Below are positions 4,359 to 32,621 of a stretch of 41,568 nt of DNA, piece after piece. The stretch comes from Acrocarpospora macrocephala (GTDB taxonomy: Bacteria > Actinomycetota > Actinomycetes > Streptosporangiales > Streptosporangiaceae), in contig NZ_BLAE01000010.1 in assembly GCF_009687865.1 (NCBI RefSeq), forward strand, positions 1 through 41,568. Direction: 5' to 3'. How positions within the stretch are numbered: the stretch's first letter is position 1; the number at the start of each line of letters is the position of its first letter. The notes under the pieces were generated by a model that saw only the letters and a list, made by a program, of their open reading frames with translations, searched no databases and was not told the origin of the DNA. The position numbers were made by a program, and so were the translations under genes.

Positions 4359-6074
4359 TCATCCGATCGCTCCGCGGCGGGCTGGGAGTATGCCGCCGAC
4401 GCGTCGGTTCATTCCGGGTGACATGACTGAGTCGGAGACCAGAATGTCCAGAAGCATCGACTGGCTGCCTGACGCGAACTCTTCCAGGGCCGGAGGTATG
4501 TCCTCGATCTGGCGAATCGTCAGACCGCGCAGTCCGAAGCCACGGGCCACCCGAGCGATGTCGTTGCGTCCGTAGGTGGCCCCCCGATCGGCCAGGCCGG
4601 CCGCCCGGAGTTTGTGAACCTCGGATCCGAAGGCACCGTCGTTGAGAACACAGATCAGGATCTTGAGACCGTATCGTTGCAGTGTCTCGAGTTCCTGCAC
4701 ATGCATCATGACCCCGCCATCCCCTTCGACCAGGATCACCGGTGATCCTGGTCGGGCGATCGCGACACCGGCCGCGTAGCTGATGCCGTTTCCGACAGCC
4801 CCGAACTCCCTGATGGTCAGGAAGTGAGCCGCCGGCACATCGTGCATGTGCGTAGCGAAATACCCGCAGTGGCCAGCCGCGTTGACGTGTTCCCAGTCGC
4901 GTGGCACGAGACGGTCGAAGACCTCGATCACCGATCGGGGGTCAAGGTATCCATCCTTGATGTCGTAGGCGGTGCGGTCGGCCGGTTCGGCACGGACACG
5001 CGATGCGTACGAAGCGACATCCCAGCCTCCGTCGCCGGTGAAGCCTTGGCCGGTGAGTTCGTCGAACAGCGCCCGCACACCCGCCGCCGCGTCCGCGCCC
5101 ACGTGCGAGCTCGCGACCGCCCGTGCGTGCCTGAGGCCACCAGGACTGTCATCCAGTTGCAGCACCCGCTGCGGGTCGATGAGCTGTCCACTGTTCGTCG
5201 TGAAGCTCGTCATGCTGGCACCGACGGCGATGACCAGGTCGCAGCGGTCGAACACCTCGCGTGTCACGGCGTGGGAGAAGCCGCCGGCGACGCCGATGCT
5301 TCGTGGGTGGCCGGCGAAGAGGCCACGCACAGGCAGGGTCGTGGCCAGTGCCGCGTCGCAGAGCTCGGCGAGCTCTACGCACGCATCGGTCGCGTCCTTG
5401 GCGGTTGCTCCGCGCCCGGCCAACACGACGATCCGGGTCGCCGATCGGACCCGTTGGGCGGCTCGGCGGATGTACTCCGGATGCGGCAGTCGCGACCCGG
5501 CATCGGGCAGTCGGCCGATGCCGTCCTCGGCCCCGACCGGGTGCTCGTCTATGTCGATCATTTCCTGTTGGAGGTCCATCGGAACGCCGAGGACGACCGG
5601 GCGACGCTCGGCGCGGGCGAGATAGAACGCCTGGGTGACCAGCCGTGGCAACGTTGCCAGGCTGTGGACCTGGATATACTCGGCGCCGGTGGCCCGAACG
5701 AGGGGCGCCTGGTCGATCCCCTGGTTGTACCACGGCGAGTGCAGCGGACCTTCGCCCGCGAGCATGAGCAGGGGTATCCGCGCGGCTGCGGCCGTCGCGA
5801 GGGCGGTCATTGTTTGGGTGAGTCCAGGTCCACACGTCACCGAGGCGACGCCCAGGCGGCCCGATTTCTGGGCGTAGGCCAGCGCCATCGAGACCGCGCA
5901 GTGCTCATGGCGGACGTGAATCGACCGTACGTCCGGGTACTCGGCCAGGACGGCGTCCCAGTACATGTTGCCATCGCCGGTCAGCACGAAGACCGCACGG
6001 ACATCCTCGCGATAGAAGCGTTGCGCGAGATAGCGGTAAACCGGAATCCCGGTCCTAGCCGGTGTAGGCATCAT
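4359..6074 (-). CDS. Thiamine-diphosphate-dependent enzyme (acetolactate synthase/2-hydroxyacyl-CoA lyase superfamily)
   Basis: A 571-residue protein with the three-domain layout of the superfamily: Pyr domain (1-170), central domain (about 200-330) and PP domain (about 370-560). The catalytic Glu is E57 in R-H-E-H-C-A. Next come the S-V-T-C-G-P-G-L-T-Q substrate-channel segment and the ThDP/Mg motif, which starts E-G-D-G-G-V-M-M-H near residue 451 and ends with L-N-D near 478. The protein could be an acetolactate-synthase-like, benzoylformate-decarboxylase-like, oxalyl-CoA-decarboxylase-like or 2-hydroxyacyl-CoA-lyase-like enzyme. Its position behind CoA-transferases and a thiolase-fold protein favours a CoA-linked lyase or decarboxylase, but that is inference. 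There is no small regulatory subunit gene beside it, which argues against biosynthetic acetolactate synthase. It is the last gene of the leftward operon; its start overlaps the thiolase-like gene by 20 bp. Confidence 0.88.
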   Translation of the reverse strand: MMPTPARTGIPVYRYLAQRFYREDVRAVFVLTGDGNMYWDAVLAEYPDVRSIHVRHEHCAVSMALAYAQKSGRLGVASVTCGPGLTQTMTALATAAAARIPLLMLAGEGPLHSPWYNQGIDQAPLVRATGAEYIQVHSLATLPRLVTQAFYLARAERRPVVLGVPMDLQQEMIDIDEHPVGAEDGIGRLPDAGSRLPHPEYIRRAAQRVRSATRIVVLAGRGATAKDATDACVELAELCDAALATTLPVRGLFAGHPRSIGVAGGFSHAVTREVFDRCDLVIAVGASMTSFTTNSGQLIDPQRVLQLDDSPGGLRHARAVASSHVGADAAAGVRALFDELTGQGFTGDGGWDVASYASRVRAEPADRTAYDIKDGYLDPRSVIEVFDRLVPRDWEHVNAAGHCGYFATHMHDVPAAHFLTIREFGAVGNGISYAAGVAIARPGSPVILVEGDGGVMMHVQELETLQRYGLKILICVLNDGAFGSEVHKLRAAGLADRGATYGRNDIARVARGFGLRGLTIRQIEDIPPALEEFASGSQSMLLDILVSDSVMSPGMNRRVGGILPARRGAIG

Positions 6075-7215
6075 GGCTCCCCAAGATTACTGTTCCGGCG
6101 GCCTCGAACATGCCGCCAACGCCCTGAACCATGCTCACGTTGACGTTCGGGACCTGGGCGGCGGCCTCGCCACGAACCTGACGCACCGCCTCCAGGAGGA
6201 GGAAAATCCCGTAGAGCCCGGTGTGGGTGTAGCTCAGGCCGCCGCCGTTGGTGTTCATCGGCAAGGTTCCCCCGGGCCGCGTGTGACCATCGGCGATGAA
6301 TGCCCCGGCTTGGCCCCGTTCCACGAAACCGCAGTCCTCGAGGGCGTAGACCGGCAGGTGGGCGAAGGCGTCGTAGACCATGAGGTGGTTGACATCGGGT
6401 GGCCCCAGGCGCGCTTCGGCGAACGCCGCCGTGGACGCGTCGACGAACGCGCGCGATGTCGTCAGGTCGCGCATCGTCGAGACCATCGAGGTTTCACACG
6501 CCTCGCCGGCGCCGAGGACGAAGACCGGCGGCTTGGGGAAAGATCCAGCTCCGGCCCGGTCCGCCGACGTCACGACGACGGCGCCGCCGCCGTCGGTCAC
6601 GAGGCAACACTCGAGAAGGTGCATGGGGTACGCCACCATGCGGGACGCGAGCACGTCGTCGACTGTGATCGGGTCGCGGAACATCGCCCGCGGCACCTTA
6701 CTGGCCCACATCCGCTGAGCGACCGCCACCGACGCCAACTGTTCGTGGGTCAGACCGTACTTTTTCATGTACCGGAGCACACCGATCGGGAACAGGGTCG
6801 GTGGTGTGAACGCACCGTAGGGCTGTTCAAACTGGCCCGGCGGCGATGCCGGGTCGGTGATCCGGGGCGGACGGCCGATGCGGGAACGGTTGGAGGCCCC
6901 GTGGGTGATGAGGACGGTCTCGCACAGGCCGGATTGGATTGCCGCGACGGCGTGGCGAAGGTGGAGCAGGAACGATCCGCCGCCGATGTAGGTGCCGTCC
7001 AGGTAGCGCGGCCGCATCCCGAGGTGATGGCTGACGGTGATGACGGGAAGGCCCGCCGTCGCCAGTCCGTCGATGTCGTTCAGGGTCAGTCCCGCGTCCG
7101 CGACGGCCAGCCGCGCCGCCTCCGCGTGCAGTTCGAGAGCCGACTGATCTTTGATCACGCCCAGCTTCGTCGTCTCCGCGGCGCCGACGATGGCTCCGCC
7201 CGCGGGCCTAGCCAC
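6055..7215 (-). CDS. Thiolase-fold protein of the lipid-transfer/SCP-x type, no catalytic Cys visible
   Basis: A 386-residue thiolase superfamily member. It has E-A-A-R-L-A-V-A-D-A-G-L near the N-terminus, the Y-D-A-F-A-H segment, and N-T-N-G-G-G-L-S-Y-T-H-T-G-L-Y-G where true thiolases have N-x-x-G-G-x-x-x-x-G-H-P. The usual nucleophilic Cys position falls in G-G-G-S-F-L-L-H and the C-terminal C-x-G position in Q-G-V-G-G-M; neither holds Cys. Together with the DUF35 protein encoded just upstream, this matches the Ltp2/DUF35 type of retro-aldolase known from steroid side-chain degradation rather than a beta-ketothiolase. The GTG start at 7215 overlaps the DUF35 stop by 8 bp; a longer frame to 7263 adds residues without similarity. 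Confidence 0.87.
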   Translation of the reverse strand: MARPAGGAIVGAAETTKLGVIKDQSALELHAEAARLAVADAGLTLNDIDGLATAGLPVITVSHHLGMRPRYLDGTYIGGGSFLLHLRHAVAAIQSGLCETVLITHGASNRSRIGRPPRITDPASPPGQFEQPYGAFTPPTLFPIGVLRYMKKYGLTHEQLASVAVAQRMWASKVPRAMFRDPITVDDVLASRMVAYPMHLLECCLVTDGGGAVVVTSADRAGAGSFPKPPVFVLGAGEACETSMVSTMRDLTTSRAFVDASTAAFAEARLGPPDVNHLMVYDAFAHLPVYALEDCGFVERGQAGAFIADGHTRPGGTLPMNTNGGGLSYTHTGLYGIFLLLEAVRQVRGEAAAQVPNVNVSMVQGVGGMFEAAGTVILGSHDAYTG

Positions 7216-7651
7216 GGTCGTCGACCGGCCCCGGTCGAAAGACCGGAAGCATGACGTCCCCACGCGGTTCGAAGTCGACGACGAGTGGCATGTCGAGCAC
7301 CAGCGCCTCCGGGGTCTGGGCGATCCCCCGAACCGAGCTCATGAGGCGGGGTCCCTCCTCCAGTTCAACGATCGCGATGGCATACGGGACGTCCTCCTCG
7401 AAGCCCGGTGCGGCGATATGGCTGATCAGATACGAGTGAAGTCGTCCACGTCCGGACATCGTCGTCCAGGTCAGTTCCGTGGACCAGCAGGTCGGGCAGG
7501 CAGCCCGTGGATAGAAGACGTACTGCTCGCACACGCCGCAGTAGGGCAGGCGCAACTCCCCGCGGGCGGCGGCCTGCCAGTACTCGGCCGTCTCCGGGGT
7601 GGGCGTCGGAGCCGGCTTGGCCTGAAGGGACGTTGCGGTCCGGGTGGTCAC
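7208..7651 (-). CDS. DUF35 zinc-ribbon/OB-fold protein, partner of the thiolase-fold protein
   Basis: A 147-residue protein. After a Pro/Thr-rich start comes E-Y-W-Q-A-A-A-R-G-E-L-R-L-P-Y and a rubredoxin-like zinc ribbon with C38, C41, C52 and C55 (C-G-V-C ... C-P-T-C). An OB fold follows, with G-R-G-R-L-H-S-Y and P-Y-A-I-A-I-V-E-L-E-E-G. Members of this family act as acyl-CoA-binding partners of thiolase-fold enzymes or of MaoC-like hydratases. In steroid degradation the DUF35 domain is required for the Ltp2 aldolase. Here it is encoded immediately before the thiolase-fold protein, so a heteromeric enzyme is likely. The GTG start overlaps the stop of the CoA-transferase upstream by 4 bp; the 351-codon open frame around it is mostly a shadow of that gene. 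Confidence 0.9.
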   Translation of the reverse strand: MTTRTATSLQAKPAPTPTPETAEYWQAAARGELRLPYCGVCEQYVFYPRAACPTCWSTELTWTTMSGRGRLHSYLISHIAAPGFEEDVPYAIAIVELEEGPRLMSSVRGIAQTPEALVLDMPLVVDFEPRGDVMLPVFRPGPVDDRG

Positions 7652-8856
7652 GGGCCCACCTTGACGGTTCCCGCGTCGGTCAGGACCCGCACCTGGTCGG
7701 GTGAGTATCCGAGCTCCGTCAGTACCTCGACCGTGTGCTCGCCCAGGCGCGGAGCGACCGACCCGGTGCCCAACCGCGTACCGTCGAGGATTATCGGTGA
7801 GGCGAGCAGGCGGAATGCGTCCCGGTCTCCGCCCTTCGCCTCGTACACCAGATCCCGTGACGCCAGCGTGGTCGACTCCAGGACCTGGCGGATGTCGAGA
7901 ACCTCGTCGCAGCCGATGCCGTGCCTTCTGAGCAGGGCCAGCCAGGCCTCGGTGGAGTCCTGGCGCAACCGGCCTTCCAGCAGCTCCTGCAGGGCCTGCT
8001 GGTTGGTGACCCGACTCTGCAACGAACCGAACGCACTCACGTCGTCCGGGGCCAGACCCAGTGCCTCGACCAGCCGGTCCCAGTCCGCCGGCGCGTACGC
8101 GGAGAGCACGATCCATCCGTCGCGTGTCGGGAAGCATCCGTACGGCGCGACCGCGTGGTGGAGGTTGCCCACCCGGGACACCGGCTCGGCGTTGAGGAGG
8201 TGCCGCTGACCGACGTCGGCCAGCAAGGTGATGAGCGTGTCGTGCAATCCCAGGTCGATCCAACAGCCAAGGCCGGTGGTGTCGCGGTTGACGAGACCGG
8301 CGAGGACGGCGATCGACATGTAGAGGCCGCCCGACAGGTCCCCGATCGGTACGCCGATCCGGGACGCGCGATTGCCCGGGTGCCCGGTGACGTCGATCAG
8401 TCCGGCGAATGCCTGGTTGACGATGTCGAACGAGATCCGTTCCCGCATCGGGCCGGTCGCGCCGAACCCCGACAGTGAGCAGTACACGAGATCGGGTTTG
8501 ATCTTCTTGGCCGTCTCATACTCAAGTCCGAGGCGTCGCATCACCCCCGGTCGGAAATTCTCCACCAGAACGTCGGCCGCGCGGATCGCGGTGCGGAGAA
8601 CCTCGCGGCCCTCCCCCGTACGAGCGTCGATCGCGAGGCTCTTCTTGCCCCGGTTGACCGCCATGAAGTAGGAGCTCTCGTCGCCGACGAGTGGACGGTG
8701 GCGTCGGGTCGGGTCACCGATGCGCGGCTCCTCGACCTTGACGACCGTGGCTCCGAGATCGCTCAGGATCTCCGCCGACCAAGGTCCGGCAAACATCCGG
8801 GTGAAGTCGAGTACCCGGATCCCCGACAGCGGCAGGTTGGGTGGGGACTGGTTCAT
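7648..8856 (-). CDS. Family III CoA-transferase (CaiB/BaiF)
   Basis: A 402-residue enzyme that moves CoA between carboxylic acids. The N-terminal L-S-G-I-R-V-L-D-F-T-R-M-F-A-G-P, the segment L-G-A-T-V-V-K-V-E and V-E-N-F-R-P-G-V-M-R-R-L-G-L are typical. The catalytic aspartate is D144 in S-F-D-I-V-N-Q-A, aligning with the formyl-CoA transferase Asp169 region. The sequence resembles the general CaiB group (formyl-CoA, succinyl-CoA, carnitinyl-CoA and related transferases); substrates cannot be inferred. The start overlaps the stop of another CoA-transferase by 4 bp and the end overlaps the DUF35 gene by 4 bp, so the proteins are probably made together. Confidence 0.95.
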   Translation of the reverse strand: MNQSPPNLPLSGIRVLDFTRMFAGPWSAEILSDLGATVVKVEEPRIGDPTRRHRPLVGDESSYFMAVNRGKKSLAIDARTGEGREVLRTAIRAADVLVENFRPGVMRRLGLEYETAKKIKPDLVYCSLSGFGATGPMRERISFDIVNQAFAGLIDVTGHPGNRASRIGVPIGDLSGGLYMSIAVLAGLVNRDTTGLGCWIDLGLHDTLITLLADVGQRHLLNAEPVSRVGNLHHAVAPYGCFPTRDGWIVLSAYAPADWDRLVEALGLAPDDVSAFGSLQSRVTNQQALQELLEGRLRQDSTEAWLALLRRHGIGCDEVLDIRQVLESTTLASRDLVYEAKGGDRDAFRLLASPIILDGTRLGTGSVAPRLGEHTVEVLTELGYSPDQVRVLTDAGTVKVGP

Positions 8857-10049
8857 TGGCCGCTCGATTCGGGTTGAGCATCCGACGGCGACAGGATGCT
8901 CGCTGGATCGTGCTCACCGACGCGGGGCGCCCGCCGCGCCGCGGGGTGGTAGGTCGAGCCGTCGGAGAGCAGGAACCGCAGCGGTGAACCGATCATCCTC
9001 ACCGGGCGGGAAAGTCCAGCCATCGTCGGCGTCATACCTCGGTGGGTGGTCTGGTCGAGGGACAGGGCCCGGCCGACCGGTAGCACGGGGCCGTATGGCA
9101 CATCGGCCTCCTGCAGGATCGCGCTCCACTCGTCGGTTGTTCGCTGGAGAAACAGCGCGTCGAGAATGGCGGAAAGCTCGTCCTTGGCCCGCATCCGATC
9201 GGGGATCGTCTTGTATCGCGGGTTCTCCAGCAGATCCGGACGCCCGATACCGACGCAGAACTTCGACCAGAAGGCCTGGGTGAAGATCGCGATGACGATC
9301 TCACCGTCGGAGGTCCGGAACGCGTTGTACGGAAATATCGAAATGTGGCCTGTGCCCAGCCGCGACCGGTGCTCGCCCGTGGCGAAGTAGGCGGAGGCCA
9401 TGTTGCTCAGGAGCGTGACCGCGGTGTCGTACCCGGCCACCTCGATCCGCTGACCCGCGCCCGCCGTCTGGCGGCGGAAAATGGCGGCCAGCACAGCGAT
9501 GGCGACGTACGTACCGGACACGAAGTCGAAGATGGACGCGCCGGCCCGGGTGGGCGGGTCGTCGGCCTCGCCGGTGAGGTCCATGCACCCGGCGCTCGCC
9601 TGAAGCATCAGGTCGTTGCCGGCCCAGCCGGCCCGCTCCCCGAAGCTGCCCCAGGTGCTGCCGTCACAGGTGATGAGCTCGGGCCTGTGGGTGGCGAGCC
9701 GACGGAGGACTCCCGCCAAGTTCCGGCCGATCGGATTCGCCGAGTCGTAGAGAACCACGTCGGCCCAGTCGAGGAGCCGATGGATGACCTCCAGCTCCGC
9801 CGCATCGCTCGCCCTGAGGGCAACCGATCGTTTGTTGCGGCAGAACGCCAGGCGTTGGTAGCCCAGGCCGTCGATCACCGGGTCCACCTCGTCGATGGCG
9901 GGGCCCGAACCGGGATCCTCGACCATCACGACGTCCGCGCCCACATCCGCGAGGAACATCGACGCACAGTCGATCGGTAGGCCGCGCCCGAGCACCAGAA
10001 CCTTCGTACCCCGCACGGGTCCGGCGGCCGCGGCTCCTTCCCTATACAT
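8853..10049 (-). CDS. Family III CoA-transferase (CaiB/BaiF), second copy
   Basis: A 398-residue CoA-transferase related only distantly to its neighbour. It has L-A-D-V-G-A-D-V-V-M-V-E-D-P-G-S-G near the start, and the catalytic Asp is D146 in G-N-D-L-M-L-Q-A-S-A-G. The usual L-D-x-T/x-G-P start is replaced by V-L-G-R-G-L-P-I-D, and the normal E-N-F-R-P-G motif by Y-D-S-A-N-P-I-G-R-N-L. It is therefore a divergent member. Two adjacent genes of this family may form a heteromer or act on successive substrates. I chose ATG 10049, which overlaps the preceding stop by 8 bp; an ATG at 10094 adds 15 unrelated residues. Confidence 0.92.
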   Translation of the reverse strand: MYREGAAAAGPVRGTKVLVLGRGLPIDCASMFLADVGADVVMVEDPGSGPAIDEVDPVIDGLGYQRLAFCRNKRSVALRASDAAELEVIHRLLDWADVVLYDSANPIGRNLAGVLRRLATHRPELITCDGSTWGSFGERAGWAGNDLMLQASAGCMDLTGEADDPPTRAGASIFDFVSGTYVAIAVLAAIFRRQTAGAGQRIEVAGYDTAVTLLSNMASAYFATGEHRSRLGTGHISIFPYNAFRTSDGEIVIAIFTQAFWSKFCVGIGRPDLLENPRYKTIPDRMRAKDELSAILDALFLQRTTDEWSAILQEADVPYGPVLPVGRALSLDQTTHRGMTPTMAGLSRPVRMIGSPLRFLLSDGSTYHPAARRAPRVGEHDPASILSPSDAQPESSGQ

Positions 10050-11157
10050 GTGCCGCCCCGAGATGAGGAACGTCGGTGACGACCCGCGCCTCACCCTTGG
10101 CGGTCAGGCGGCCACGGTGGTCGACGGCCTGCATCTGTACCGTGAGCGACTTGGCGTCGGGGTCGACCGAGGTGACCGAACCGGTCAGGGTGGTGAGGTC
10201 GCCGACGTAGTTGGGCGCGCGCAGCTCGATCTTGATTTGCTGGACCCAGGCGCGGTCGCCGATCCAATCGGTCACGAGGTGCCCGAGCCAGGCGCAGCGC
10301 TGCCAACCGTAGTCGTACGGTCCGGGCATGCCGATCTTCTTGGCGATCCGCTCGTCCCAGTGCACGCACTCCGGCGCATCCGGCACTCCGTACTCGTCGA
10401 CCATACCGGCGGCGGGGTGGCGGTTGAGGTACTCGTACCACTGCCGCGAGGACTTGATGAACACGCCCGCGCCGACACCGTTCAGCCAGCAGATCACGTC
10501 GGCGACGCTGAGCGGACCCTTGATGAGCGAGGGAAGCTCGTCGCCGACTTTGACCTGGCTCAGGTCGAGCAGGCCGCTGCCGCGCCGCGCCTTCACCTCG
10601 TCCAGGTATTTCTGCTTGATCTCGGCGATCTCGTCGGCGGAGTACGTCTTGCGGGTGAGCGCCTGGTACTTCCCCCGCTCCCGCGCTTCGTCCCGCAGGG
10701 TCCGGAAGCTGTAACTCGTGGCCGTGGCGACAAGCTCGTCGCCGTTGGAGTGCGTCGTCACGTTCTGCTGGATGTAGCTCGTTCCGGAGTACTTGCCTTG
10801 CTTCTCCTCCAGGGAGTCCAGCGCGGTGATGGACTTCAACCGGTCGCCTTCGCACACGGGGCGTTGGAACTCGATCCGCAGGCCGGCGAAGAGGGCGTGT
10901 ACGCCGCGCAGTCCCTGCGGCCTGGACCTGGCCACGGTCGCGAGAAACGTCGGTGGTGCGATCACCCGGCCGAAGGGCGTCGACGCCGCGTACTCGGGTT
11001 CGCAGAACAGCGGATTGTCGTCGCCGACGCCGAGCGCGTACCGGGCGATGATGTCCGAGGTGATGAGCCGGTTCACCTGCTCGAGTTCGTACTTCTGCCC
11101 GATACGTGCTCGTAGCGCTTCGACCATCGGGGGAAGGTCAGCTGCGGTCAAGCCCAT
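10042..11157 (-). CDS. MaoC-like double-hotdog dehydratase (FAS1-like N-terminal domain)
   Basis: A 371-residue protein with two hotdog domains. The N-terminal one (about 1-150) contains R-Y-A-L-G-V-G-D-D-N-P-L-F and G-R-V-I-A-P-P-T-F, typical of the FAS1-like/MaoC N-terminal dehydratase family. The C-terminal one (about 205-360) contains W-L-N-G-V-G-A-G and W-Q-R-C-A-W-L-G-H-L. It probably hydrates an enoyl-CoA or dehydrates a 3-hydroxyacyl-CoA. It is the first gene of the leftward operon. ATG 11157 has a GAGG ribosome-binding site 5-8 bases upstream. The -35/-10 and a TTGCATGCAA operator lie at 11211-11251, so this start fixes a leader of about 55-60 nt. Confidence 0.9.
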   Translation of the reverse strand: MGLTAADLPPMVEALRARIGQKYELEQVNRLITSDIIARYALGVGDDNPLFCEPEYAASTPFGRVIAPPTFLATVARSRPQGLRGVHALFAGLRIEFQRPVCEGDRLKSITALDSLEEKQGKYSGTSYIQQNVTTHSNGDELVATATSYSFRTLRDEARERGKYQALTRKTYSADEIAEIKQKYLDEVKARRGSGLLDLSQVKVGDELPSLIKGPLSVADVICWLNGVGAGVFIKSSRQWYEYLNRHPAAGMVDEYGVPDAPECVHWDERIAKKIGMPGPYDYGWQRCAWLGHLVTDWIGDRAWVQQIKIELRAPNYVGDLTTLTGSVTSVDPDAKSLTVQMQAVDHRGRLTAKGEARVVTDVPHLGAAHV

Positions 11158-11210
11158 GGAGTCCTCATCTCGTACGGGGCACGGCAGGCGCACGTGAGCC
11201 GGGATGGAGA

Positions 11211-11251: not shown

Positions 11252-11312
11252 TCCCTCAGGCACGACCATTCGAAAGCCCTGGTCTCACAAGGCGTTTTAT
11301 GCTCACACCAGA

Positions 11313-13873: not shown

Positions 13874-13881
13874 CGGGAAAG

Positions 13882-25072: not shown

Positions 25073-26049
25073 CCGACAACCGCGCCGGGGCAGGATCCAC
25101 CTACGGTCTGGTGCCGGGGCCCATGACCATTCCGAACGCCCACGAGCTGCGGCTCACCCTGCGGGCGTCGCTGGCCGGGCCGCAGCCGCTGGTACTGCCA
25201 GGTGTCACTGACGCGATGGGCCTGCGCCTGGTGGAGCAGGCCGGGTTCGCAGCGGCGTACGCGACCGGAGGCGGGCTCGCGAACGCCCAGCACGCGCTTC
25301 CCGACATCGGGCTGACCTCCATGGCGGAGGTCGTTGAGCACGCGGGACGGATCACGGCGGCGGCGTCGATTCCCGTCGTGGTCGACGCGGATACCGGCTA
25401 CGGCGGCCCGTTGGCGACCATGCGCACGATCCGGTTGCTCGAACGGGCGGGTGCGGCCGCCATCCAGGTCGAGGACCAACAGATGCCCAAGCAGTGTGGC
25501 CACTTCGACGATCACGATCTCATCCCGGCCGGCCACATGCAGACGAAGATCGCTATCGCCTGCGAGGCCCGCGCCGACGACGCGCTGGTCATCATCGCGC
25601 GGACGGACGCTCGGTCGGTCTACGGCATCGAGGAGGCCATCGAGCGGGCGAAGGCGTACGTCGAAGCCGGCGCCGATGTGATCTTCGTCGAGGCGCCGCG
25701 AACCATCGAAGAACTGGCGCTTGTCGGCACCGAGCTGGCCGGCGTCCCGCTCGTCGTCAACGTGGTCGAAGGTGGCAAGACTCCGGAGCTCGACCTGAAG
25801 GAGTACGCCGAGCTGGGCTTCAGCGTCATCCTGTTCGCCAACTACCTGATGCGGACGATGATGCGGGCCGGCATCGAGGCCCTGCGGCATCTTCGAGAGC
25901 ACGGGGAGACGGCGAGCCGCGCCGACCGGATGGTGACCTGGTCCGAGCGGCAGGAGCTGTTTCGGCTGGCCGACCTGGCCGCGGCGGAGGCGCTTCTCGA
26001 TCAGCCTCTCGCGGACATCATCGCGGCGAACCGGCGCCCGGTGCCATGA
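25069..26049 (+). CDS. Isocitrate lyase/PEP mutase family enzyme (methylisocitrate-lyase-like)
   Basis: A 326-residue TIM-barrel enzyme. Visible are the N-terminal L-P-G-V-T-D-A-M-G-L, the Mg-binding D-A-D-T-G-Y-G-G (106-113), V-E-D-Q-Q-M-P and the active-site loop K-Q-C-G-H (141-145, Cys143), then A-R-T-D-A and F-V-E-A-P. The loop Cys is the hallmark of lyases (isocitrate, 2-methylisocitrate, 2,3-dimethylmalate), as opposed to PEP mutases. A retro-Claisen/aldol cleavage of a substituted malate or citrate giving pyruvate or glyoxylate is the most likely reaction. The second loop residue is Gln rather than the usual Arg or Lys. GTG start in a GTGA overlap; the stop overlaps the next ATG. Confidence 0.93.
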   Translation: MTDNRAGAGSTYGLVPGPMTIPNAHELRLTLRASLAGPQPLVLPGVTDAMGLRLVEQAGFAAAYATGGGLANAQHALPDIGLTSMAEVVEHAGRITAAASIPVVVDADTGYGGPLATMRTIRLLERAGAAAIQVEDQQMPKQCGHFDDHDLIPAGHMQTKIAIACEARADDALVIIARTDARSVYGIEEAIERAKAYVEAGADVIFVEAPRTIEELALVGTELAGVPLVVNVVEGGKTPELDLKEYAELGFSVILFANYLMRTMMRAGIEALRHLREHGETASRADRMVTWSERQELFRLADLAAAEALLDQPLADIIAANRRPVP

Positions 26050-27464
26050 CGAGGATCGCGGGCCTGCCCTACCAGGACGACCTCCCCGAGCGGGCCGGAG
26101 TGGTCGTGCTCGGATCCGGGCTGGCCGGCTGCGCCGCCCTGCTCGCGGCGGCTGAGGCCGGCCGGTACGCGGTCATGGTGGAGAAGACCGGTTCGATCGG
26201 CGGCTCAACCGTGCTGTCAGCCGGCCTGTCGGCCTTCGCCGGTACCGACGAACAGCACGCGCTCGGCATCACGGACTCGATCGAGCTGCTTCGCCGCGAC
26301 CTGCTCGAGGTCGGCGACCACCGCAACGACGTAGCGCTGGTCGATCTGTATTGCGCGCACCAACTGGAGACCTACTCGTGGCTGCGTCGCCACGGCGTGG
26401 TCTACGGCGAGATCCACGCGGCGTCCGGCCAGACCGTCCCACGAAGTCACCCGACCGACACCACCGCGATGTTGGTGCGCCTCCTCGTCGCCGCGGGAAA
26501 GCTCGGCGCCCGGCTGGTCATGGACACCGCCGCGGAGCGGTTGGTGTACGAGGACGGCCGGGTGGTGGGAGTCGACGTCCGCCTCTCCAGCGGAGAGCGA
26601 CGCCGCGTGTGGGCGGACGCGGTCGTCCTGGCCACCGGTGGGTTCGCTCGGAACAACGAGTTGCTTACCAGGTTCGCGCCCCAGATGGAGCACGCACTGC
26701 GGGCCGGCGGCGCCGGGTGCGAGGGTGACGGGCTGAAGATGGCGATGGCACTCGGCGCCGGAATCCGCGACATGCCCTATGTCAAGGGTACGTACGGCAT
26801 CTATGCCGAGCCGCATCCACACGAGGACGGCACCGGCATCCTCGCCGTCTACAAAGGAGCGATCGCGGTCAACGGTGCGGGCCAACGGTTCGTCGACGAA
26901 TCGCGAAACTATAAGGAGATCGGCGATGTCGCGCTGCGGCAGCCGGGCGGGACGACCTGGCAGGTCTTGGACGCCACGGTCATGGCCCAGTCGAGCGACG
27001 ACGTCCCGATCTACGCATTCGCCGAGCGGGATCGAGCCGGCATGCTGGTGCGCGCCGATTCCGTCGAGGAACTCGAACAAAGGCTCGCCCTCCCGGCGGG
27101 CTCGCTTCAGACGACCGTCGCGGACTACAACCGGCGGATCGCCAGCAGTGAGCCGGATCCGATGGGCCGTGAGTTCCTGTGCGGTGGCTTCGGTCGTCCC
27201 TTCGCGCTCGATACCCCACCCTTCTACGCACAGCCGACCAAGACGGTCGTCCTGGCGACCTACTGTGGCGTTACTGTCGACACACACCTGCGGGTACTCG
27301 ACTGGTGGGGTGAGCCGATCGGTCGCCTGTTCGCCGCAGGTGAGATCGTGGGCGGATTCCACGGCAGTGGTTACATGACCGGTACGTCGATCGGCAAGGC
27401 CGCGATCTTCGGGCGGCTGTCGGGCACGCACTCCGCGGCCGTGGAGAGTGAGCTGACGTGGTGA
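26046..27464 (+). CDS. FAD-dependent oxidoreductase, fumarate reductase/KstD superfamily (first of three)
   Basis: A 472-residue FAD_binding_2 protein. The dinucleotide motif is V-V-V-L-G-S-G-L-A-G-C-A-A near residue 19-31, E-K-T follows, and G-G-S-T-V-L-S-A-G covers the flavin. A-T-G-G-F-A-R-N-N-E-L marks the second part of the FAD domain. The C-terminal L-F-A-A-G-E-I-V-G-G-F-H-G-S-G-Y is the conserved FAD end motif. The superfamily includes fumarate reductases, 3-ketosteroid dehydrogenases and tricarballylate dehydrogenase. It probably introduces or removes a double bond next to a carboxyl or carbonyl group. ATGA overlap with the previous gene. Confidence 0.92.
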   Translation: MTRIAGLPYQDDLPERAGVVVLGSGLAGCAALLAAAEAGRYAVMVEKTGSIGGSTVLSAGLSAFAGTDEQHALGITDSIELLRRDLLEVGDHRNDVALVDLYCAHQLETYSWLRRHGVVYGEIHAASGQTVPRSHPTDTTAMLVRLLVAAGKLGARLVMDTAAERLVYEDGRVVGVDVRLSSGERRRVWADAVVLATGGFARNNELLTRFAPQMEHALRAGGAGCEGDGLKMAMALGAGIRDMPYVKGTYGIYAEPHPHEDGTGILAVYKGAIAVNGAGQRFVDESRNYKEIGDVALRQPGGTTWQVLDATVMAQSSDDVPIYAFAERDRAGMLVRADSVEELEQRLALPAGSLQTTVADYNRRIASSEPDPMGREFLCGGFGRPFALDTPPFYAQPTKTVVLATYCGVTVDTHLRVLDWWGEPIGRLFAAGEIVGGFHGSGYMTGTSIGKAAIFGRLSGTHSAAVESELTW

Positions 27465-28225
27465 ATCTGTTCGACCTCACCGGCGCCACCTCTCTGGTCG
27501 TCGGCGCGGCCGCCGGAGGCTTGGGTGAGTGGGCGGCCCGGGCGCTGGCCGGCCACGGCGCGGCCGTGGCGGTGGCCGACCTCCCCGAACAACAGGACGC
27601 TCTCGCCGTCACCGGTAAGGCCGCCGACGCGACATGCCACAGCGTGGACGTCACGGACGAGGCCTCGGTGGCGAGGCTCATGGACGAGGTGCGCGAACGG
27701 CACGGACAACTGGACGTCGTGGTCAACGCGGCCGGCGTCATGCTGCGCAAGCCGTACGACGAGACCACGCCGCGGGAGTTCGAGCACGTGGTCCGCGTCA
27801 ACCTCACCGGCTGCTGGCTCGTCGGCCGGGCCGCCGGCATGGCCATGACGGCTCAGGGCGGCGGCGGGCGGATCGTCAACCTGACGACCGTGTACGCGGA
27901 GCGGGTGGGCCCGGTGCCCGAGTCGGCGTACTACGCGTCGAAGGCGGCAGTGGTCAACGTGACCCGGTCTCTGGCCAGCGAGTTGGGCGCGCACGGTATC
28001 ACGGTCAATTGCCTTGCCCCCGGCGTTTTTTACCCGACCAAGATGACGACGCCGTTGGCCGAGGACCCACAGCGACTGGCCTGGTTCGCGCAGCGCACGC
28101 TACTCGGACGGTTAGGCGATCCGGCCCGGGACTTCGCCGGCCCCCTGCTCCTGCTGTGCAGCCCGGCATCGTCCTACATGACGGGTCAGGTTGTGTACGT
28201 CGACGGCGGATGGTCGGCCTGGTGA
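27458..28225 (+). CDS. Short-chain dehydrogenase/reductase with altered motifs
   Basis: A 255-residue SDR. The glycine motif reads V-V-G-A-A-A-G-G-L-G, less regular than T-G-x-x-x-G-x-G. N-A-A-G is present. The catalytic Tyr159 and Lys162 are in A-Y-Y-A-S-K. At the catalytic Ser position the sequence is N-L-T-T-V-Y, so Thr probably replaces Ser. The start is GTG GTG (27458 or 27461); the second gives the GTGA overlap typical of this operon. The C-terminal T-G-Q-V-V-Y-V-D-G-G is as expected. Substrate unknown. A 96-bp gap with a tiny reading frame separates it from the next flavoprotein gene. Confidence 0.92.
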   Translation: MVNLFDLTGATSLVVGAAAGGLGEWAARALAGHGAAVAVADLPEQQDALAVTGKAADATCHSVDVTDEASVARLMDEVRERHGQLDVVVNAAGVMLRKPYDETTPREFEHVVRVNLTGCWLVGRAAGMAMTAQGGGGRIVNLTTVYAERVGPVPESAYYASKAAVVNVTRSLASELGAHGITVNCLAPGVFYPTKMTTPLAEDPQRLAWFAQRTLLGRLGDPARDFAGPLLLLCSPASSYMTGQVVYVDGGWSAW

Positions 28226-28253
28226 TGGACAGGCCGAAACGGATGGAGAGCGG

Positions 28254-28325
28254 ATGAACTCGACGAGGACAGCCCTTCTTATGCTCGACTATTCCCACCA
28301 TCGAGATCGAGGAAGCGCCCGATGA
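28254..28325 (+). pseudogene. 23-codon reading frame, possible remnant of an isochorismatase-like hydrolase
   Basis: An ATG preceded by GGAGAGCGG opens a 23-codon frame that ends in an ATGA overlap with the next flavoprotein gene, just as complete genes in this operon do. Its first residues, T-R-T-A-L-L-M-L-D-Y, resemble the N-terminal beta-strand of isochorismatase/cysteine hydrolases (T-A-L-L-V-x-D-x-Q). The rest of such a protein (about 180 residues) is missing. It may be the leftover of an in-frame deletion, now acting as a short leader peptide that couples translation. The family link rests on ten residues, so it is weak. Confidence 0.35.
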
Positions 28326-29785
28326 GGTATGACGTCGACGTCGTCGTGGTGGGGGGCGGGGCGGCCGGTCTGTCCGCCGCTTGTTCGGCGGCGGAGGCCG
28401 GTGCCACCGTCGTCCTGCTGGAGCGATCGCCCGAGGCCGAGACCGGAGGCAATACCCGCTACACCGAGGCATTCCTGCGGATGAAGTCGCTTGACGAGAC
28501 GGCTGACGGCTTCGAGGCCGCCCTGGTCGACGACTTCATGGGCTATCCCGATCCGAGCATCGTCCGAGACGCCGCGCTGCCGGCCTCTCAGCAGAGCGGA
28601 CTCTGGCGGTCCACACATACGGTTGATCCGGAGTACGTCGCGACGCTGTCGGAGAACGCTCCGCAGGCGCTGGCGTGGATGGCCGGGCACGGCGTGCGGT
28701 TCGACACTGTGCCGACGCCCTTCCTGACGCAGACCACGACGCGCATGGCACCGGTCGGCGGCGGACTCGCCATCGTCGACACGATGGGCAAGGCCGCGCG
28801 CGACCTCGGCGTCAGGTTCTGCTTCGAGACCACGGCACGTGACCTGATCACCCACAACGGTGAGGTCATCGGCGTCCGCGCCGCCACCGCCCACGGCGAC
28901 GACGAGTACCTGGGCCGGGTCGTGCTGGCCTCCGGTGGGTATCAGGGCAACGCGGAGATGATGGCCCATTACCACCCCGGCCAGGCCATGACCTGCCGAC
29001 CCGTCGCCAAGGGCGGCCACTACAACAAGGGTGAGGGCATCGAGATGGCCCTGCGCGTCGGTGCGGCGACCGCCGGGAACTTCAGCCTGTTCCATGCCGA
29101 ACCGGTGGATCCGCGCTCGGGACAGGCCGAGGCAGCCATTTTCTGCTTCCCGTACGGGGTGCTGGTGAACAAGGAGGGTCGACGTTTCGTCGACGAGGCA
29201 CGAGGTGCGATCGACGCGTGGTACGAGCGCACCACCCGGACGATCCAGGCGCAGACCGAGGGGATCGCCTGGGTGGTGCTCGACCAACAGGGTCTGGCCG
29301 TGCCGAACATCATGTCCGGGGTACGCACCGACGTGGCTCCCATCCGGGCCGGCAGTCTCGGTGAGCTCGCCGATGTCCTGGGCATCCCCGGCGATGCGCT
29401 CCAGTCGACGATCGACGCCTACAACCAGGCCTGCCCGAATCCCGCGACCTTCGACCACAGCGCGCCGGACGGGCTGGCCACGGTGGGACTGACCCCGCCG
29501 AAGTCCAACTGGTCGCGGCGCATCGAGACGGCTCCGTTCGTCGCCTACCCCATCATGTGCGCCAACGTGTTCACGTTCGGCGGACTCAAGACGACCGCCA
29601 AGGCTGAGGTCGTCGACCGGGACGGCCGGCCGATCCGGGGACTATACGCGGCGGGTGAGATGACCGGGCTCTACTACTCGAACTACGTCGGCTCGACCTC
29701 GGTGTTGCGAGGGCTGACGTTCGGCCGCATCGCCGGCGTCGACGCCGCCAGCCTCGCCCGCGCAACCGGCGAAGGGGGCGTGTGA
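28322..29785 (+). CDS. FAD-dependent dehydrogenase, tricarballylate dehydrogenase (TcuA)-like (second of three)
   Basis: A 487-residue FAD_binding_2 protein. The FAD motif V-V-V-G-G-G-A-A-G-L-S-A-A is near 8-20. The segment G-G-N-T-R-Y-T-E-A-F-L-R-M is characteristic of the TcuA group, which oxidises tricarballylate to cis-aconitate in Salmonella. A-S-G-G-Y-Q-G-N-A-E-M-M and the C-terminal A-A-G-E-M-T-G-L-Y-Y complete the FAD site. The electron-transfer partner TcuB is not encoded nearby, so either another acceptor is used or the true substrate differs. The start is an ATGA overlap with the short frame at 28254. Confidence 0.88.
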   Translation: MRYDVDVVVVGGGAAGLSAACSAAEAGATVVLLERSPEAETGGNTRYTEAFLRMKSLDETADGFEAALVDDFMGYPDPSIVRDAALPASQQSGLWRSTHTVDPEYVATLSENAPQALAWMAGHGVRFDTVPTPFLTQTTTRMAPVGGGLAIVDTMGKAARDLGVRFCFETTARDLITHNGEVIGVRAATAHGDDEYLGRVVLASGGYQGNAEMMAHYHPGQAMTCRPVAKGGHYNKGEGIEMALRVGAATAGNFSLFHAEPVDPRSGQAEAAIFCFPYGVLVNKEGRRFVDEARGAIDAWYERTTRTIQAQTEGIAWVVLDQQGLAVPNIMSGVRTDVAPIRAGSLGELADVLGIPGDALQSTIDAYNQACPNPATFDHSAPDGLATVGLTPPKSNWSRRIETAPFVAYPIMCANVFTFGGLKTTAKAEVVDRDGRPIRGLYAAGEMTGLYYSNYVGSTSVLRGLTFGRIAGVDAASLARATGEGGV

Positions 29786-29788
29786 GCG

Positions 29789-30592
29789 ATGCGAATCTGG
29801 CACCAGAGTTTCACCGTCCTCGAGGACGTACCTCGGTACCGGGAGGCGCTGGAGCGCCACCTGTACGCCCAGGTTCATCCGGAGACCACGATCGATCTGC
29901 ACGGGATGCGACCCGGTACGTACCCGTCGGACTACCCGGGATCGCACATCGGCTACGCGTACCTGGCCGGTCTGCACAAGGAGCAGTTCGTCCACGCGGC
30001 GTTGCAGGCTCAGGACGACGGCTACGACGCCTTCCTCATCGCCACGCTTCCCGACACGGCGTACGAGGAAATCCGCACGGTGGTCGACATCCCGGTCGTC
30101 ACCTTCGGGCAGACGTCGGTGCTCATGGCGGCGATGCTCGGAGACTGCGTGGGCATTGTCAACTTCATCGCCGCGCTCGAGCCACAACTGCGCCGCAACC
30201 TGCGAAACTACCGGCTCGACAGCCTGGTCGGCCCCATCCTGCAGGTGGAGGCGGGATTCAGTGACGTCATGGCCGCCTACGCGGATCCAGACCCGCTCCG
30301 CGCGGCCTTCGAGCGGGCCGCCCGCAAGGCGATCGGCGCCGGCGCCACGGTCATCGTTCCCGGTGAGGGGCCGTTGAATGTCTTCTTGGCCGATCTCGGC
30401 ATCGCGCGCGTCGACGACGTGCCCGTGCTGGATTCGCTCGGAACCTGTGTCCGCGTGGCCGAGGTCAGAGCCGCGCAGTACCGGACGCAGGGTCTGGTTG
30501 CGTCCCGGGTGGGGTTCTACGGCGCGCAGCCGCCGCGGCGGCTGCTCGATGCCGCCCGGCAGTTCTACGGCGTCCCGACGGCTCTGACATGA
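29789..30592 (+). CDS. Asp/Glu/hydantoin racemase-fold protein without the two catalytic Cys
   Basis: A 267-residue member of the Asp/Glu racemase superfamily (racemases, hydantoin racemase, maleate isomerase, arylmalonate decarboxylase). It has the family pattern: D-L-H-G-M-R-P-G-T near 36, G-Y-D-A-F-L-I-A-T-L-P-D, P-V-V-T-F-G-Q-T-S and V-I-V-P-G-E-G-P-L-N. At the first Cys position it has Thr86 (I-A-T-L-P-D) and at the second Glu193 (P-G-E-G). Two-base Cys racemisation is therefore excluded. It may be a lyase, isomerase or decarboxylase with other residues. A GAAGGGGG ribosome-binding site lies 10 bases before the ATG. The stop overlaps the next start (ATGA). Confidence 0.85.
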   Translation: MRIWHQSFTVLEDVPRYREALERHLYAQVHPETTIDLHGMRPGTYPSDYPGSHIGYAYLAGLHKEQFVHAALQAQDDGYDAFLIATLPDTAYEEIRTVVDIPVVTFGQTSVLMAAMLGDCVGIVNFIAALEPQLRRNLRNYRLDSLVGPILQVEAGFSDVMAAYADPDPLRAAFERAARKAIGAGATVIVPGEGPLNVFLADLGIARVDDVPVLDSLGTCVRVAEVRAAQYRTQGLVASRVGFYGAQPPRRLLDAARQFYGVPTALT

Positions 30593-32001
30593 CTGCTGAC
30601 CTGATCGATGTCGGGCCTGATATCGCCATCGTGGGTGGTGGCGCCTGCGGAGTGATGACCGCTCTCCGGGCCGCCCAGAACCCCGACCTCGTGGTAGCCG
30701 TATTCGAGAAGTCGACCCGAGAGGGCTGCAATGCGGCCATTTCGTCGGGGTCTCTGCCCGCCGGCGGGACGAGATTCCAACGTCTGGCCGGGATCGACGA
30801 CTCACCACAGAAGCATGCGGAAGAGATCCTGGCCGCCTCGGGCGACGAGGAGTGGCGCCCGATCGTGGAGGCACTGTGCGCGGTCGCTCCGGCGATGGTC
30901 GAGTGGATCGCCGATACCGGGTACCCCATCGAAGTCGGGACCGACATGCCGCGCGCCGGCATGTCGGTCCCACGCCTGCATACCGACGTCGGCCGGCAGG
31001 GCGGAGGACGGCTCATGCGGCACCTCCGCGGGCTGCTCGGGTCGTACCCCAACGTCGCGTTCGTAGACGAGGCGCCAATCGTCGGCCTCGTCATGGACGC
31101 CGGCGTCGTGAGCGGCGTGGTGGTCAACCAGAACGGCCGTCGACAACGGATCGGCGCCGGCGCCATCATGCTGGCCGTGGACGGGTTCGCCAACAACCCG
31201 GCGCTGGTGCGGGAATATCTGGGCGACCTCGGTAATCCCTACTACGGTGGCGTGTCCACGTCGACCGGGGATGCCCTCACCTGGGTCCAGCGACTCGGCG
31301 GCCGGGTTCGGAACATGGGCGCCGGCCTGAGGTCCGGGCTGGTCGTGGTCGATCACGGGACGCGCGTGTCGCCGGCCCTCCCGTTCCACGGCGCGGTACT
31401 CGTCAACGCCAACGGCCAGCGCTTCGTCGACGAGGAGCGGCACGGCTACTCCGCGATGGCGGGGATCCTGCAGGGACAACCCGGCGAGCGGGCCGCCATG
31501 ATCTTCGACGCCACCGCGCTGGCGGCAACGCGGGAGTCGGAGATGATGCGGGAGTGCCTGGCGGCCCGAGCCATCCGCGAGGTCGCGACGCTCGCTGAGC
31601 TCGCCGCATTGCTCAGGCTGGACGTCGAGCAGGCACGGGAGGCGGTCACGGCCCGCCCGGGCCGTCGCCAGCTCCGGCAACCATTCTATCTCGCATGGGT
31701 GACCCACGGCCTGCTCACCACCCAGGGCGGGGTCGTCATCGACGCCCAGGGACGCGTGCTGGACAGCGCCGACCGGCCCATCCCGCATCTCTACGCCGGC
31801 GGCGGCACCGCGTGCGGGCTGGCCGGACCGTCGTCGGACGGCTACCTGTCGGGCAACGGACTCCTGTCCGCATTCGGACTGGGTTGGATCGTTGGAAACG
31901 CTCTCGCGTCGGGGCCGGTCGGTCGGTTCGCGCCACCAGTCCGTGCCGCCGATCAGCCCAGAAGAAGTGCCACGGCATTTTCGAAGGAGCGCCATAGATG
32001 A
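30589..32001 (+). CDS. FAD-dependent oxidoreductase, fumarate reductase flavoprotein type (third of three)
   Basis: A 470-residue FAD_binding_2 protein. The FAD motif I-A-I-V-G-G-G-A-C-G-V-M-T-A is at 13-26, E-K-S-T-R-E-G-C-N-A-A-I-S-S-G follows, and L-A-V-D-G-F-A-N-N-P-A-L-V replaces the common A-x-G-G-F. The C-terminal L-Y-A-G-G-G-T-A-C-G-L-A-G-P is the FAD end motif. It differs enough from the two other flavoproteins of the operon to suggest a distinct substrate. It is the last gene of the right-hand operon. Its final 49 bp overlap the 3' end of the convergent gntR gene, so the Arg/Lys/Ser-rich tail may be dispensable. Confidence 0.9.
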   Translation: MTADLIDVGPDIAIVGGGACGVMTALRAAQNPDLVVAVFEKSTREGCNAAISSGSLPAGGTRFQRLAGIDDSPQKHAEEILAASGDEEWRPIVEALCAVAPAMVEWIADTGYPIEVGTDMPRAGMSVPRLHTDVGRQGGGRLMRHLRGLLGSYPNVAFVDEAPIVGLVMDAGVVSGVVVNQNGRRQRIGAGAIMLAVDGFANNPALVREYLGDLGNPYYGGVSTSTGDALTWVQRLGGRVRNMGAGLRSGLVVVDHGTRVSPALPFHGAVLVNANGQRFVDEERHGYSAMAGILQGQPGERAAMIFDATALAATRESEMMRECLAARAIREVATLAELAALLRLDVEQAREAVTARPGRRQLRQPFYLAWVTHGLLTTQGGVVIDAQGRVLDSADRPIPHLYAGGGTACGLAGPSSDGYLSGNGLLSAFGLGWIVGNALASGPVGRFAPPVRAADQPRRSATAFSKERHR

Positions 32002-32621
32002 GCCTCCAGGAGCTTGGTCACACGCGCGGCACGCCCGGCAAGCAGGGCCTCGGCGATCGCCACATGCTCCTGGTACGCCTCGCGTGCCCGGGCCGGTTCC
32101 CGCGCCGAACGCCGACGCGCGATCGAAATCTTGGCGTTCACCTCGCGAAGCGCCTGGTCCAGCGCCGCGTTGTCGGCCATGGCGACCAGCGACCTGTGGA
32201 AGTCCATGTCGGCCGGGTACGCGGCGTCACCCTTCAGGGCCGATTCGGCGCCTTCGAGCGCCTGCAGGATGACCTGCCGCCCGGCCGGAGGCAAGCTCAC
32301 GCATGCCTTGCGCGCGCTGTAGGTCTCCACCGCGATCCGTAGCTCGTACAGCTGGCGGAGCTCTTTCTCCTCAACCGCGGGGACGAACGCGCCCTTGTGG
32401 GGAATGATCTCCAGCAGGCCCTCACTCGCCAGCCTCTGGATAGCCTCGCGGAGCGGTCCCCGGCTGATCCCGAGCTCTTCGGCGATCACCACCTCGTTGA
32501 GCCGGGTCTGCGGGCTCAACTCGCCAGTCAGGATCATCTCCCGGATCGCGCTTTCGGCGACGTCCCGCACCGTGGTGCGCCTGAGCGCACCACGGGACAC
32601 CGTCGTAGGCGACTCGGTCAT
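31953..32621 (-). CDS. GntR family transcriptional regulator with FCD domain (regulator 2)
   Basis: A 222-residue FadR-type regulator. The winged helix covers about 15-85: V-A-E-S-A-I-R-E-M-I-L-T-G-E-L, L-N-E-V-V-I-A-E-E-L-G-I-S-R-G-P-L-R-E-A-I and the wing I-P-H-K-G-A-F-V. The FCD domain (about 90-215) contains D-M-D-F-H-R-S-L-V and E-H-V-A-I-A-E-A-L, the usual metal/carboxylate-binding positions. It faces the end of the right-hand operon and overlaps the last gene by 49 bp. Sites resembling the one in front of the right-hand operon (ACTGTTGACAGT) lie in its own upstream region, so it probably represses that operon and itself. Confidence 0.94.
   Translation of the reverse strand: MTESPTTVSRGALRRTTVRDVAESAIREMILTGELSPQTRLNEVVIAEELGISRGPLREAIQRLASEGLLEIIPHKGAFVPAVEEKELRQLYELRIAVETYSARKACVSLPPAGRQVILQALEGAESALKGDAAYPADMDFHRSLVAMADNAALDQALREVNAKISIARRRSAREPARAREAYQEHVAIAEALLAGRAARVTKLLEAHLWRSFENAVALLLG

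Follow-up and report, generated by a model that had tools for sequence, protein, structure and literature searches.

The window analyzed here is a stretch of 41,568 nucleotides from Acrocarpospora macrocephala (contig NZ_BLAE01000010.1, positions 1 to 41,568), and at positions 4,359 to 32,621 it carries a catabolic island of 25 genes and ~28 kb. The genes were chosen from the list of open reading frames (ORFs), GC content by codon position, and Pfam and NCBIfam scans. They fall into set A on the minus strand (4,359 to 11,223), set B on the plus strand (11,243 to 16,606), set C on the minus strand (16,603 to 21,923), and set D on the plus strand (22,420 to 32,001), with the gene for a second GntR regulator convergent to set D (31,953 to 32,621). 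We call these sets operons on the basis of spacing only. The true starts of several genes probably lie inside the listed ORFs. The features are listed below.

4359..6074, minus strand: thiamine diphosphate (ThDP) enzyme; acetolactate synthase is the best family model, and the nearest solved relatives are 2-hydroxyacyl-CoA lyases
6055..7263, minus strand: thiolase-fold protein, probable retro-aldolase; GGGSF at the nucleophile Cys site, YDAF; start maybe ~7215
7208..7651, minus strand: stand-alone DUF35/ChsH2-type zinc-ribbon and OB protein; CxxC...CxxC retained
7648..8856, minus strand: family III CoA-transferase CT3a
8853..10094, minus strand: family III CoA-transferase CT3b
10042..11223, minus strand: MaoC-type hydratase of two fused hot dogs; the N half has Phe in place of the His, and the C half keeps it
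11210..11223, no strand: motif 1, ATTGCATGCAACAT; divergent A/B promoter; one of two places in the genome
11322..11332, plus strand: weaker copy of motif 1, 1 mismatch to TTGCATGCAAC
11243..13873, plus strand: fused double family III CoA-transferase CT3c-CT3d; likely start ~11441
13870..14340, plus strand: MaoC-type hot dog, probable inert partner; Tyr at the His site
14274..14798, plus strand: MaoC-type hot dog, probable active partner; His kept; likely start ~14334; Pfam MaoC score under the cut-off
14677..15720, plus strand: alpha/beta hydrolase; GHSMGG; likely start ~14791
15815..16606, plus strand: GntR/FCD regulator 1 (GntR1)
16603..17448, minus strand: Opp/Dpp ATPase
17438..19417, minus strand: fused Opp/Dpp permease and ATPase
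19387..20343, minus strand: Opp/Dpp permease
20364..21923, minus strand: family 5 solute-binding protein
22078..22088, plus strand: weaker copy of motif 1, 1 mismatch
22165..22178, no strand: motif 1, ATTGCATGCAACAT; upstream of the importer genes
22349..22368, plus strand: motif 2, CAACTGTTGACAGTCGACAG; upstream of operon D
22420..23202, plus strand: metallo-beta-lactamase-fold, lactonase-like hydrolase
23199..24266, plus strand: 3-hydroxyisobutyrate-dehydrogenase family protein
24263..25072, plus strand: short-chain dehydrogenase SDR1
25069..26049, plus strand: PEPM, PEP-mutase/methylisocitrate-lyase superfamily, core; retains KQCGH; among solved proteins, petal death protein is the closest
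26046..27464, plus strand: FAD1, FAD_binding_2 flavoprotein, core
27458..28225, plus strand: SDR2, short-chain dehydrogenase, core
28226..28321, plus strand: remnant of a deleted isochorismatase-family gene (ISOCH); first 13 codons and tail
28322..29785, plus strand: FAD2, TcuA-like flavoprotein, core; 361 bits versus a cut-off of 369
29789..30592, plus strand: RACE, Asp/Glu-racemase fold, core; the two Cys sites are occupied by Thr86 and Glu193
30589..32001, plus strand: FAD3, FAD_binding_2 flavoprotein, core
31953..32621, minus strand: GntR/FCD regulator 2 (GntR2); its 3' end shares 49 bases (31953 to 32001) with the 3' end of FAD3
32694..32713, plus strand: motif 2, CAACTGTTTTCAGTCAACAG; upstream of GntR2

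Every enzyme class named in an earlier, sequence-only reading of this DNA was found by the Pfam and NCBIfam scans. These are a four-gene Opp/Dpp-type ABC importer; four CoA_transf_3 domains, in two single proteins and one fused double protein; MaoC-type hydratases, as one fused double protein and one pair; a Thiolase_C_1 protein with a ChsH2-type zinc-ribbon/OB protein; a ThDP enzyme; a metallo-beta-lactamase-fold protein; an alpha/beta hydrolase; a PEP_mutase/methylisocitrate-lyase-like protein; three FAD_binding_2 flavoproteins; three NAD(P) dehydrogenases; and two GntR/FCD regulators. That gene list overlooked the Asp_Glu_race protein RACE (29,789 to 30,592) and the isochorismatase-family remnant (28,226 to 28,321). 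It had also reported that acyl-CoA ligase, acyl-CoA dehydrogenase, ring oxygenase, and CitE-type lyase are missing, and among the 25 island ORFs no match to an AMP ligase or to any of the other three was found at E 0.001.

Phytohabitans maris has all 25 genes, with order and orientation unchanged and 81 to 94% protein identity, which places the gene set beyond chance. At the DNA level the match to P. maris extends from 4,383 to 32,715 at 84 to 89% identity, and no match longer than 250 bases was found beyond these positions in the P. maris stretches compared, so the flanks differ. The permease-ATPase fusion in a single ORF (17438 to 19417) is also seen in P. maris. In a congener without the island (G001), matches to the left flank (498 to 4,336, 94%) and to the right flank gene (34,050 to 34,655, 93%) lie ~970 bp apart, and the spacer between them does not match the window. 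Because the right-flank match begins only at 34,050, 1.3 kb beyond the end of the island is also missing in G001. Since the 28-kb block is absent from the orthologous site in G001 and present with other flanks in P. maris, it is an accessory island. The earlier claim that it is a catabolic island is supported. From these comparisons, the genome that holds the window would lie close to Phytohabitans (Micromonosporaceae). There is no tRNA in the window, and there is no recombinase in those of its ORFs that were scanned, which are a part of the total.

The distribution of RACE is similarly patchy. A search of 100 relatives gave matches at E 0.001 in 20 genomes, and the strong ones are only in the own genome, G027 (73%), G060 (68%), and G063 (56% and 48%); none of the four congeners (G001 to G004) has a match at this threshold. 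A second scan, of named genomes, covered 147 relatives and 79 examined loci, 30 of them actinobacterial (L072 to L101) and 49 mostly proteobacterial (L102 to L150), and found P. maris at 91% identity.

Two palindromic motifs occur in the island. With at most 1 mismatch allowed, motif 2 (CAACTGTTnnCAGTnnACAG) occurs at exactly two places in the 12.1-Mb genome, before operon D (22,349) and before GntR2 (32,694), and exactly twice in P. maris, at the corresponding places. Motif 1 (ATTGCATGCAACAT), searched in the same way, also has exactly two places in the genome (11,210 and 22,165) and exactly two in P. maris. Neither motif is found in G001, nor when its pattern is read backwards. Motif 1 overlaps the listed start of the fused MaoC-type hydratase, so the start of this gene is probably ~11157. 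At 3 mismatches, where chance matches are possible, motif 2 has matches in stretches from G027, Janibacter, and Intrasporangium, all of which have a GntR2 homologue; there are none in L081, which also has a GntR2 homologue, or in G060, L073, and L094. The two palindromes mark two promoter sets, which splits the island into two putative regulons. Regulon 1 would contain the CoA-transferases, hydratases, aldolase-like pair, ThDP enzyme, and importer, and regulon 2 the lactonase, dehydrogenases, and core operon. Judging from motif positions, motif 1 is presumably paired with GntR1 and motif 2 with GntR2.

Regulon 2 includes a conserved core in the order PEPM-FAD1-SDR2-[ISOCH]-FAD2-RACE-FAD3. By tblastn, all seven core genes are found on one strand and in this order in 24 of the 30 actinobacterial loci, P. 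maris included, although the 30 loci include close relatives of each other and the counts are not independent. Among the remaining six, a contig end truncates L076, L088, L095, L097, and L098, and PEPM is inverted in L096. Gene by gene, the counts among the 30 are FAD2, 30; RACE, 30; FAD3, 29; SDR2, 28; ISOCH, 28; FAD1, 27; and PEPM, 26. The order PEPM-FAD1-SDR2-FAD2-RACE-FAD3 is preserved in G027 and G060. In other genera the core is present without the CoA-transferase half; with the two distinct palindromes, this does not support the view that the 28 kb is one unit.

Among the neighbors of the core in these actinobacterial loci are HsaA-, HsaB-, BphC-, and HsaD-like genes, all scoring under the NCBIfam cut-offs. 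Within the fetched stretch of the 30 loci, a BPHC gene is seen in 15, HSAA in 18, and HSAD in 21. The statement that there is no ring oxygenase thus holds for the island ORFs but not for the surroundings of the core elsewhere, which in half or more of the loci include such genes. In a comparison of six genomes, the best match to BPHC reaches 75% in G060, 69% in G106, 66% in G103, and 49% in G027, and is lower in P. maris (39%) and in the own genome (36%); an HSAA-type gene adjoins the BPHC gene in G060, G103, and G106. By these figures, the two genomes with the island have retained the core but have no close partner of the BphC type. Apart from its own gene, a search with the fused CoA-transferase gave matches of 29 to 41%; of 29 such loci, 5 have an adjacent thiolase-like (L006) or DUF35-like (L010 to L013) gene and none has the rest of the island. 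The MaoC1 search gave at best 40% in other genomes.

One core gene is deleted in the window. P. maris has an open isochorismatase-family gene between SDR2 and FAD2, and such a gene is found by tblastn in 28 of the 30 actinobacterial loci, P. maris included; at the corresponding position in the window (28,226 to 28,321), the first 13 codons and the tail are left and the middle is gone. In the family alignment, the Asp and Lys positions are kept in 28/28 sequences, and the Cys that is usual at a third position is replaced by Val in 27 and by Ala in 1; we take these three positions to be catalytic.

A second family also departs from its expected residues. The RACE model (mean predicted local distance difference test score of 92.7) has its two Cys sites at Thr86 (Thr in 38, Ser in 2, and Cys in 1 of 41 homologues) and Glu193 (Glu in 39 of 41), as placed by weak sequence alignments to the Cys residues of 2eq5 and 5lfd, whose roles we take as given. 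At position 85, next to the first site, 11 of the 41 homologues have Cys. The relatives of FAD1, FAD2, and FAD3 include flavocytochrome c fumarate reductases, urocanate reductase, and ketosteroid dehydrogenases; in alignments to wild-type fumarate reductases, the position of an Arg that is presumably catalytic is Tyr in FAD1 and Gly in FAD3. The closest relatives of PEPM, which has kept the KQCGH motif, are petal death protein and methylisocitrate lyase.

In regulon 1, all four CoA-transferase domains share a common aligned Asp, presumably with its usual role in such transferases. The earlier suggestion that activation is by CoA transfer is supported, and we regard it as probable. Both hydratase sets pair a hot dog that has lost its His (Phe in one set and Tyr in the other) with one that keeps it; the roles of His and Tyr in MaoC-type hot dogs are those given in the available part of PMC11321319. 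Among solved structures, an uncharacterized thiolase (4u4e) is closest to the thiolase-fold protein, followed by Ltp2 (6ok1). The protein has no nucleophile Cys, with GGGSF instead, and keeps the Tyr of YDxF as YDAF. In the available part of PMC12329534, retro-aldolases have YDHF (Ltp2) or YDCY (Sal) with a catalytic Tyr, and Gly replaces the nucleophile Cys in Sal. Because it lacks the Cys and has the YDAF motif, the window protein is probably not a thiolase, and it is a probable retro-aldolase. The ThDP enzyme scores below every cut-off shown, the acetolactate synthase model giving 215.6 bits versus 538.35. The claim that several enzymes cleave C-C bonds is likewise supported. Benzylsuccinate (Bbs) chemistry was rejected, with scores of 34.6 versus 250 bits for BbsA and 116.2 versus 750 bits for BbsB.

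The explanation that we favor, at somewhat better than even probability, is an accessory island of two modules with two private regulons, a CoA arm and a core arm. In regulon 1, the importer would take up the substrate, the alpha/beta hydrolase would open an ester or lactone, and the family III transferases would activate the acid with CoA; the MaoC pairs, each with one inert and one active hot dog, would then hydrate an enoyl-CoA, the thiolase-fold/DUF35 pair would carry out retro-aldol cleavage, and the ThDP enzyme would act as a lyase or decarboxylase. In regulon 2, the lactonase would likely open a lactone, and two dehydrogenases are joined to the conserved core, which may dehydrogenate an alicyclic or polyacid skeleton before a final C-C cleavage of the PEPM type. 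In many other actinobacteria the core would be coupled to an HsaA/BphC/HsaD-like ring-fission arm, and in the island-bearing genomes to the CoA arm instead. The analysis shows directly the gene content, its conservation, the accessory nature of the island, the rarity of the motifs, and the changed residues; we infer these reactions, the pairing of regulators with motifs, and the service of one compound by both arms.

More tentatively, and at somewhat less than even probability, the core may be an undescribed central degradation pathway into which lineages plug different upstream arms, meta-cleavage in Actinomadura, Nocardioides, and Streptomyces or CoA-transferase/retro-aldol in Phytohabitans, and which uses a Glu-for-Cys racemase-fold enzyme and usually a Cys-less isochorismatase-family enzyme. 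Several observations count against the two-arm model. Many of the mostly proteobacterial loci (n = 49) hold RACE without most other core genes, having parts of the core only. HSAA, BPHC, and HSAD are all unseen in 9 of the 30 actinobacterial loci, 5 of which are cut upstream by contig ends. The HSAA contrast is weak when run, as it was, with an Actinomadura-type query only: G027 has 58%, but G060, G103, and G106 have 31 to 36% versus 29% in the own genome and a partial match in P. maris. Thiolase-fold/DUF35 pairs (thiolase part, 52 to 63%) are found away from the core in other actinobacteria, in neighborhoods of which 3 of 6 were read by eye. There is no motif 1 directly upstream of GntR1, which would be cotranscribed with operon B. 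Finally, a usual core gene is deleted here, and its best relatives in the own genome are 29 to 38% identical, so regulon 2 may be incomplete.

That last observation is the basis of a different explanation, that regulon 2 is decaying now that a core gene, found in 28 of 30 loci, has been lost and that the island is partly nonfunctional. The other 25 genes are open and 81 to 94% identical to those of P. maris, however, and both motifs are kept, and we consider decay very improbable. In line with the sequence-only reading, the island could instead be a single linear route that degrades one compound, branched or multi-carboxylate, with all operons co-induced. That all 25 genes remain together in P. 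maris fits this proposal, but two distinct rare motifs and the occurrence of the core alone in other genera do not, and it appears unlikely. As for the "polyfunctional, probably branched or multi-carboxylate compound" itself, the catabolic island stands and the multi-carboxylate part is unproved.

Two further explanations name a substrate class. The island could degrade the side chain of a steroid- or terpenoid-like acid in the manner of ChsH1/ChsH2-Ltp2, with the FAD_binding_2 enzymes as ring dehydrogenases. The inert/active MaoC pairs, the DUF35 protein with a Cys-less thiolase-fold enzyme related to Ltp2, the relationship of the FAD proteins to 3-ketosteroid dehydrogenases, and the HsaA/BphC/HsaD-like partners of the core elsewhere are all consistent with this. 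Nevertheless, the island has no acyl-CoA dehydrogenase or ligase among its ORFs, its DUF35 is not fused to a MaoC domain, its motif is YDAF rather than YDHF, and the Hsa-like matches are under the family cut-offs, which makes this explanation improbable. A small-polyacid pathway of the itaconate, methylcitrate, or tricarballylate type, in which FAD2 would be a dehydrogenase like TcuA and PEPM would catalyze the last, lyase step, would account for the near-threshold TcuA score, for the nearest relatives of PEPM, and for the presence, close to related genes in Janibacter, Intrasporangium, and a Variovorax plasmid, of MmgE/PrpD or tricarboxylate-transporter binding proteins. All its scores are under the cut-offs, though, and no TcuB/TcuC, PrpC/PrpD, or CitE is found in the island ORFs; we rate it as quite unlikely too.

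Two other candidates were set aside. Flavonoid/isoflavone degradation (fde, ifc) was considered for the hydroxylase and extradiol partners seen elsewhere and was not adopted, with no sequence comparison made; as described in the available part of PMC11069340, flavonoid degradation involves an FdeE-like FAD-binding monooxygenase, a glyoxalase-type dioxygenase, and cupins. Vitamin B6 and benzoxazinoid degradation gave superfamily-level matches only and were dropped.

Some neighboring regions deserve mention. An SRPBCC gene and an HxlR/SCP2 gene (32828 to 34054) lie between the island end and a DJ-1 gene, and HxlR has a close match (87%) in one of the four congeners (G002), so this stretch is also variable. 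Near the empty site on G001 contig C12, a fused CoA-transferase (35%) stands with a thiolase-like gene (52%) (L006), and a second G001 stretch, 34692 to 35779 (L198 and L199), matches the window thiolase gene at 65% DNA identity. Outside the window, the same contig (167519 to 199739) has MaoC1-like (30 to 32%) and HsaA-like (27%) matches and is perhaps another CoA/aromatic catabolic region. The core region of the Janibacter sp. Soil728 record (G106, L195 to L196) has a sugar-type ABC transporter (read by eye), an FAA-hydrolase gene, a TauABC-like transporter, and MmgE/PrpD beside the HSAA, HSAD, and BPHC genes. A Variovorax sp. PBL-E5 plasmid (L171, 10095 to 25133) carries two RACE-type genes together with three FAD_binding_2-type relatives, an SDR, an isochorismatase-family protein, MmgE/PrpD, and tricarboxylate-transporter binding proteins; TcuA and ETF genes are also present, and this grouping is a possible clue to the electron acceptor.

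In the literature searched, which mostly lay outside subscription papers and bioRxiv preprints, there is no described pathway with this gene set or core, in agreement with the earlier reading, and no described function for an operon that is conserved across several actinobacterial genera. If the two-arm model is true, a catabolic core has been rewired to different upstream chemistry. Handles on it are the two genome-rare motifs, for regulators and inducers; P. maris, with the whole gene set; and two enzyme families that are missing an expected catalytic Cys.

Known systems resemble parts of the island. PEPM shares its sequence family and the KQCGH motif with methylisocitrate lyase and petal death protein, but at 273.7 bits it is below the prpB equivalog cut-off of 354.4. 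Tricarballylate utilization (Tcu) depends on TcuA, TcuB, and TcuC; FAD2 is a near-threshold relative of the tricarballylate dehydrogenase TcuA, but Pfam finds no TcuB or TcuC among the island ORFs. Itaconate degradation (ict-ich-ccl) includes a CitE-type citramalyl-CoA lyase, which has no Pfam match there either. The nearest solved relatives of the ThDP enzyme are 2-hydroxyacyl-CoA lyases, but it reaches only 176.8 bits versus a cut-off of 600. Relatives of the meta-cleavage enzymes HsaA, HsaB, HsaC, HsaD, BphC, and BphD adjoin the core in half or more of the 30 loci; in contrast, these genes are not in the window island, the relatives score under the family cut-offs, and the best BphC-type match in the own genome is 36%. 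The predicted fold of RACE matches the Asp/Glu/hydantoin/allantoin racemase superfamily, with allantoin racemase 3qvk as the top hit (E 1.2e-13), whereas Thr and Glu occupy the two sites at which the racemases have Cys. The hydratase sets share inert and active MaoC halves with ChsH1-ChsH2, as judged from the His site only, but in that hydratase DUF35 is fused to the inert MaoC and in the window it stands alone (7,208 to 7,651). Both ChsH1/ChsH2-Ltp2 and Shy-Sal use a DUF35 zinc-ribbon/OB partner, as the window does, and the island differs from them in having CoA-transferases in place of an acyl-CoA dehydrogenase or ligase. The thiolase-fold protein shares the Cys-less nucleophile site and the Tyr of YDxF with side-chain aldolases of the Ltp2/Sal type, and because its motif is YDAF rather than YDHF or YDCY, we would say that it probably works like these aldolases, not that it is one.

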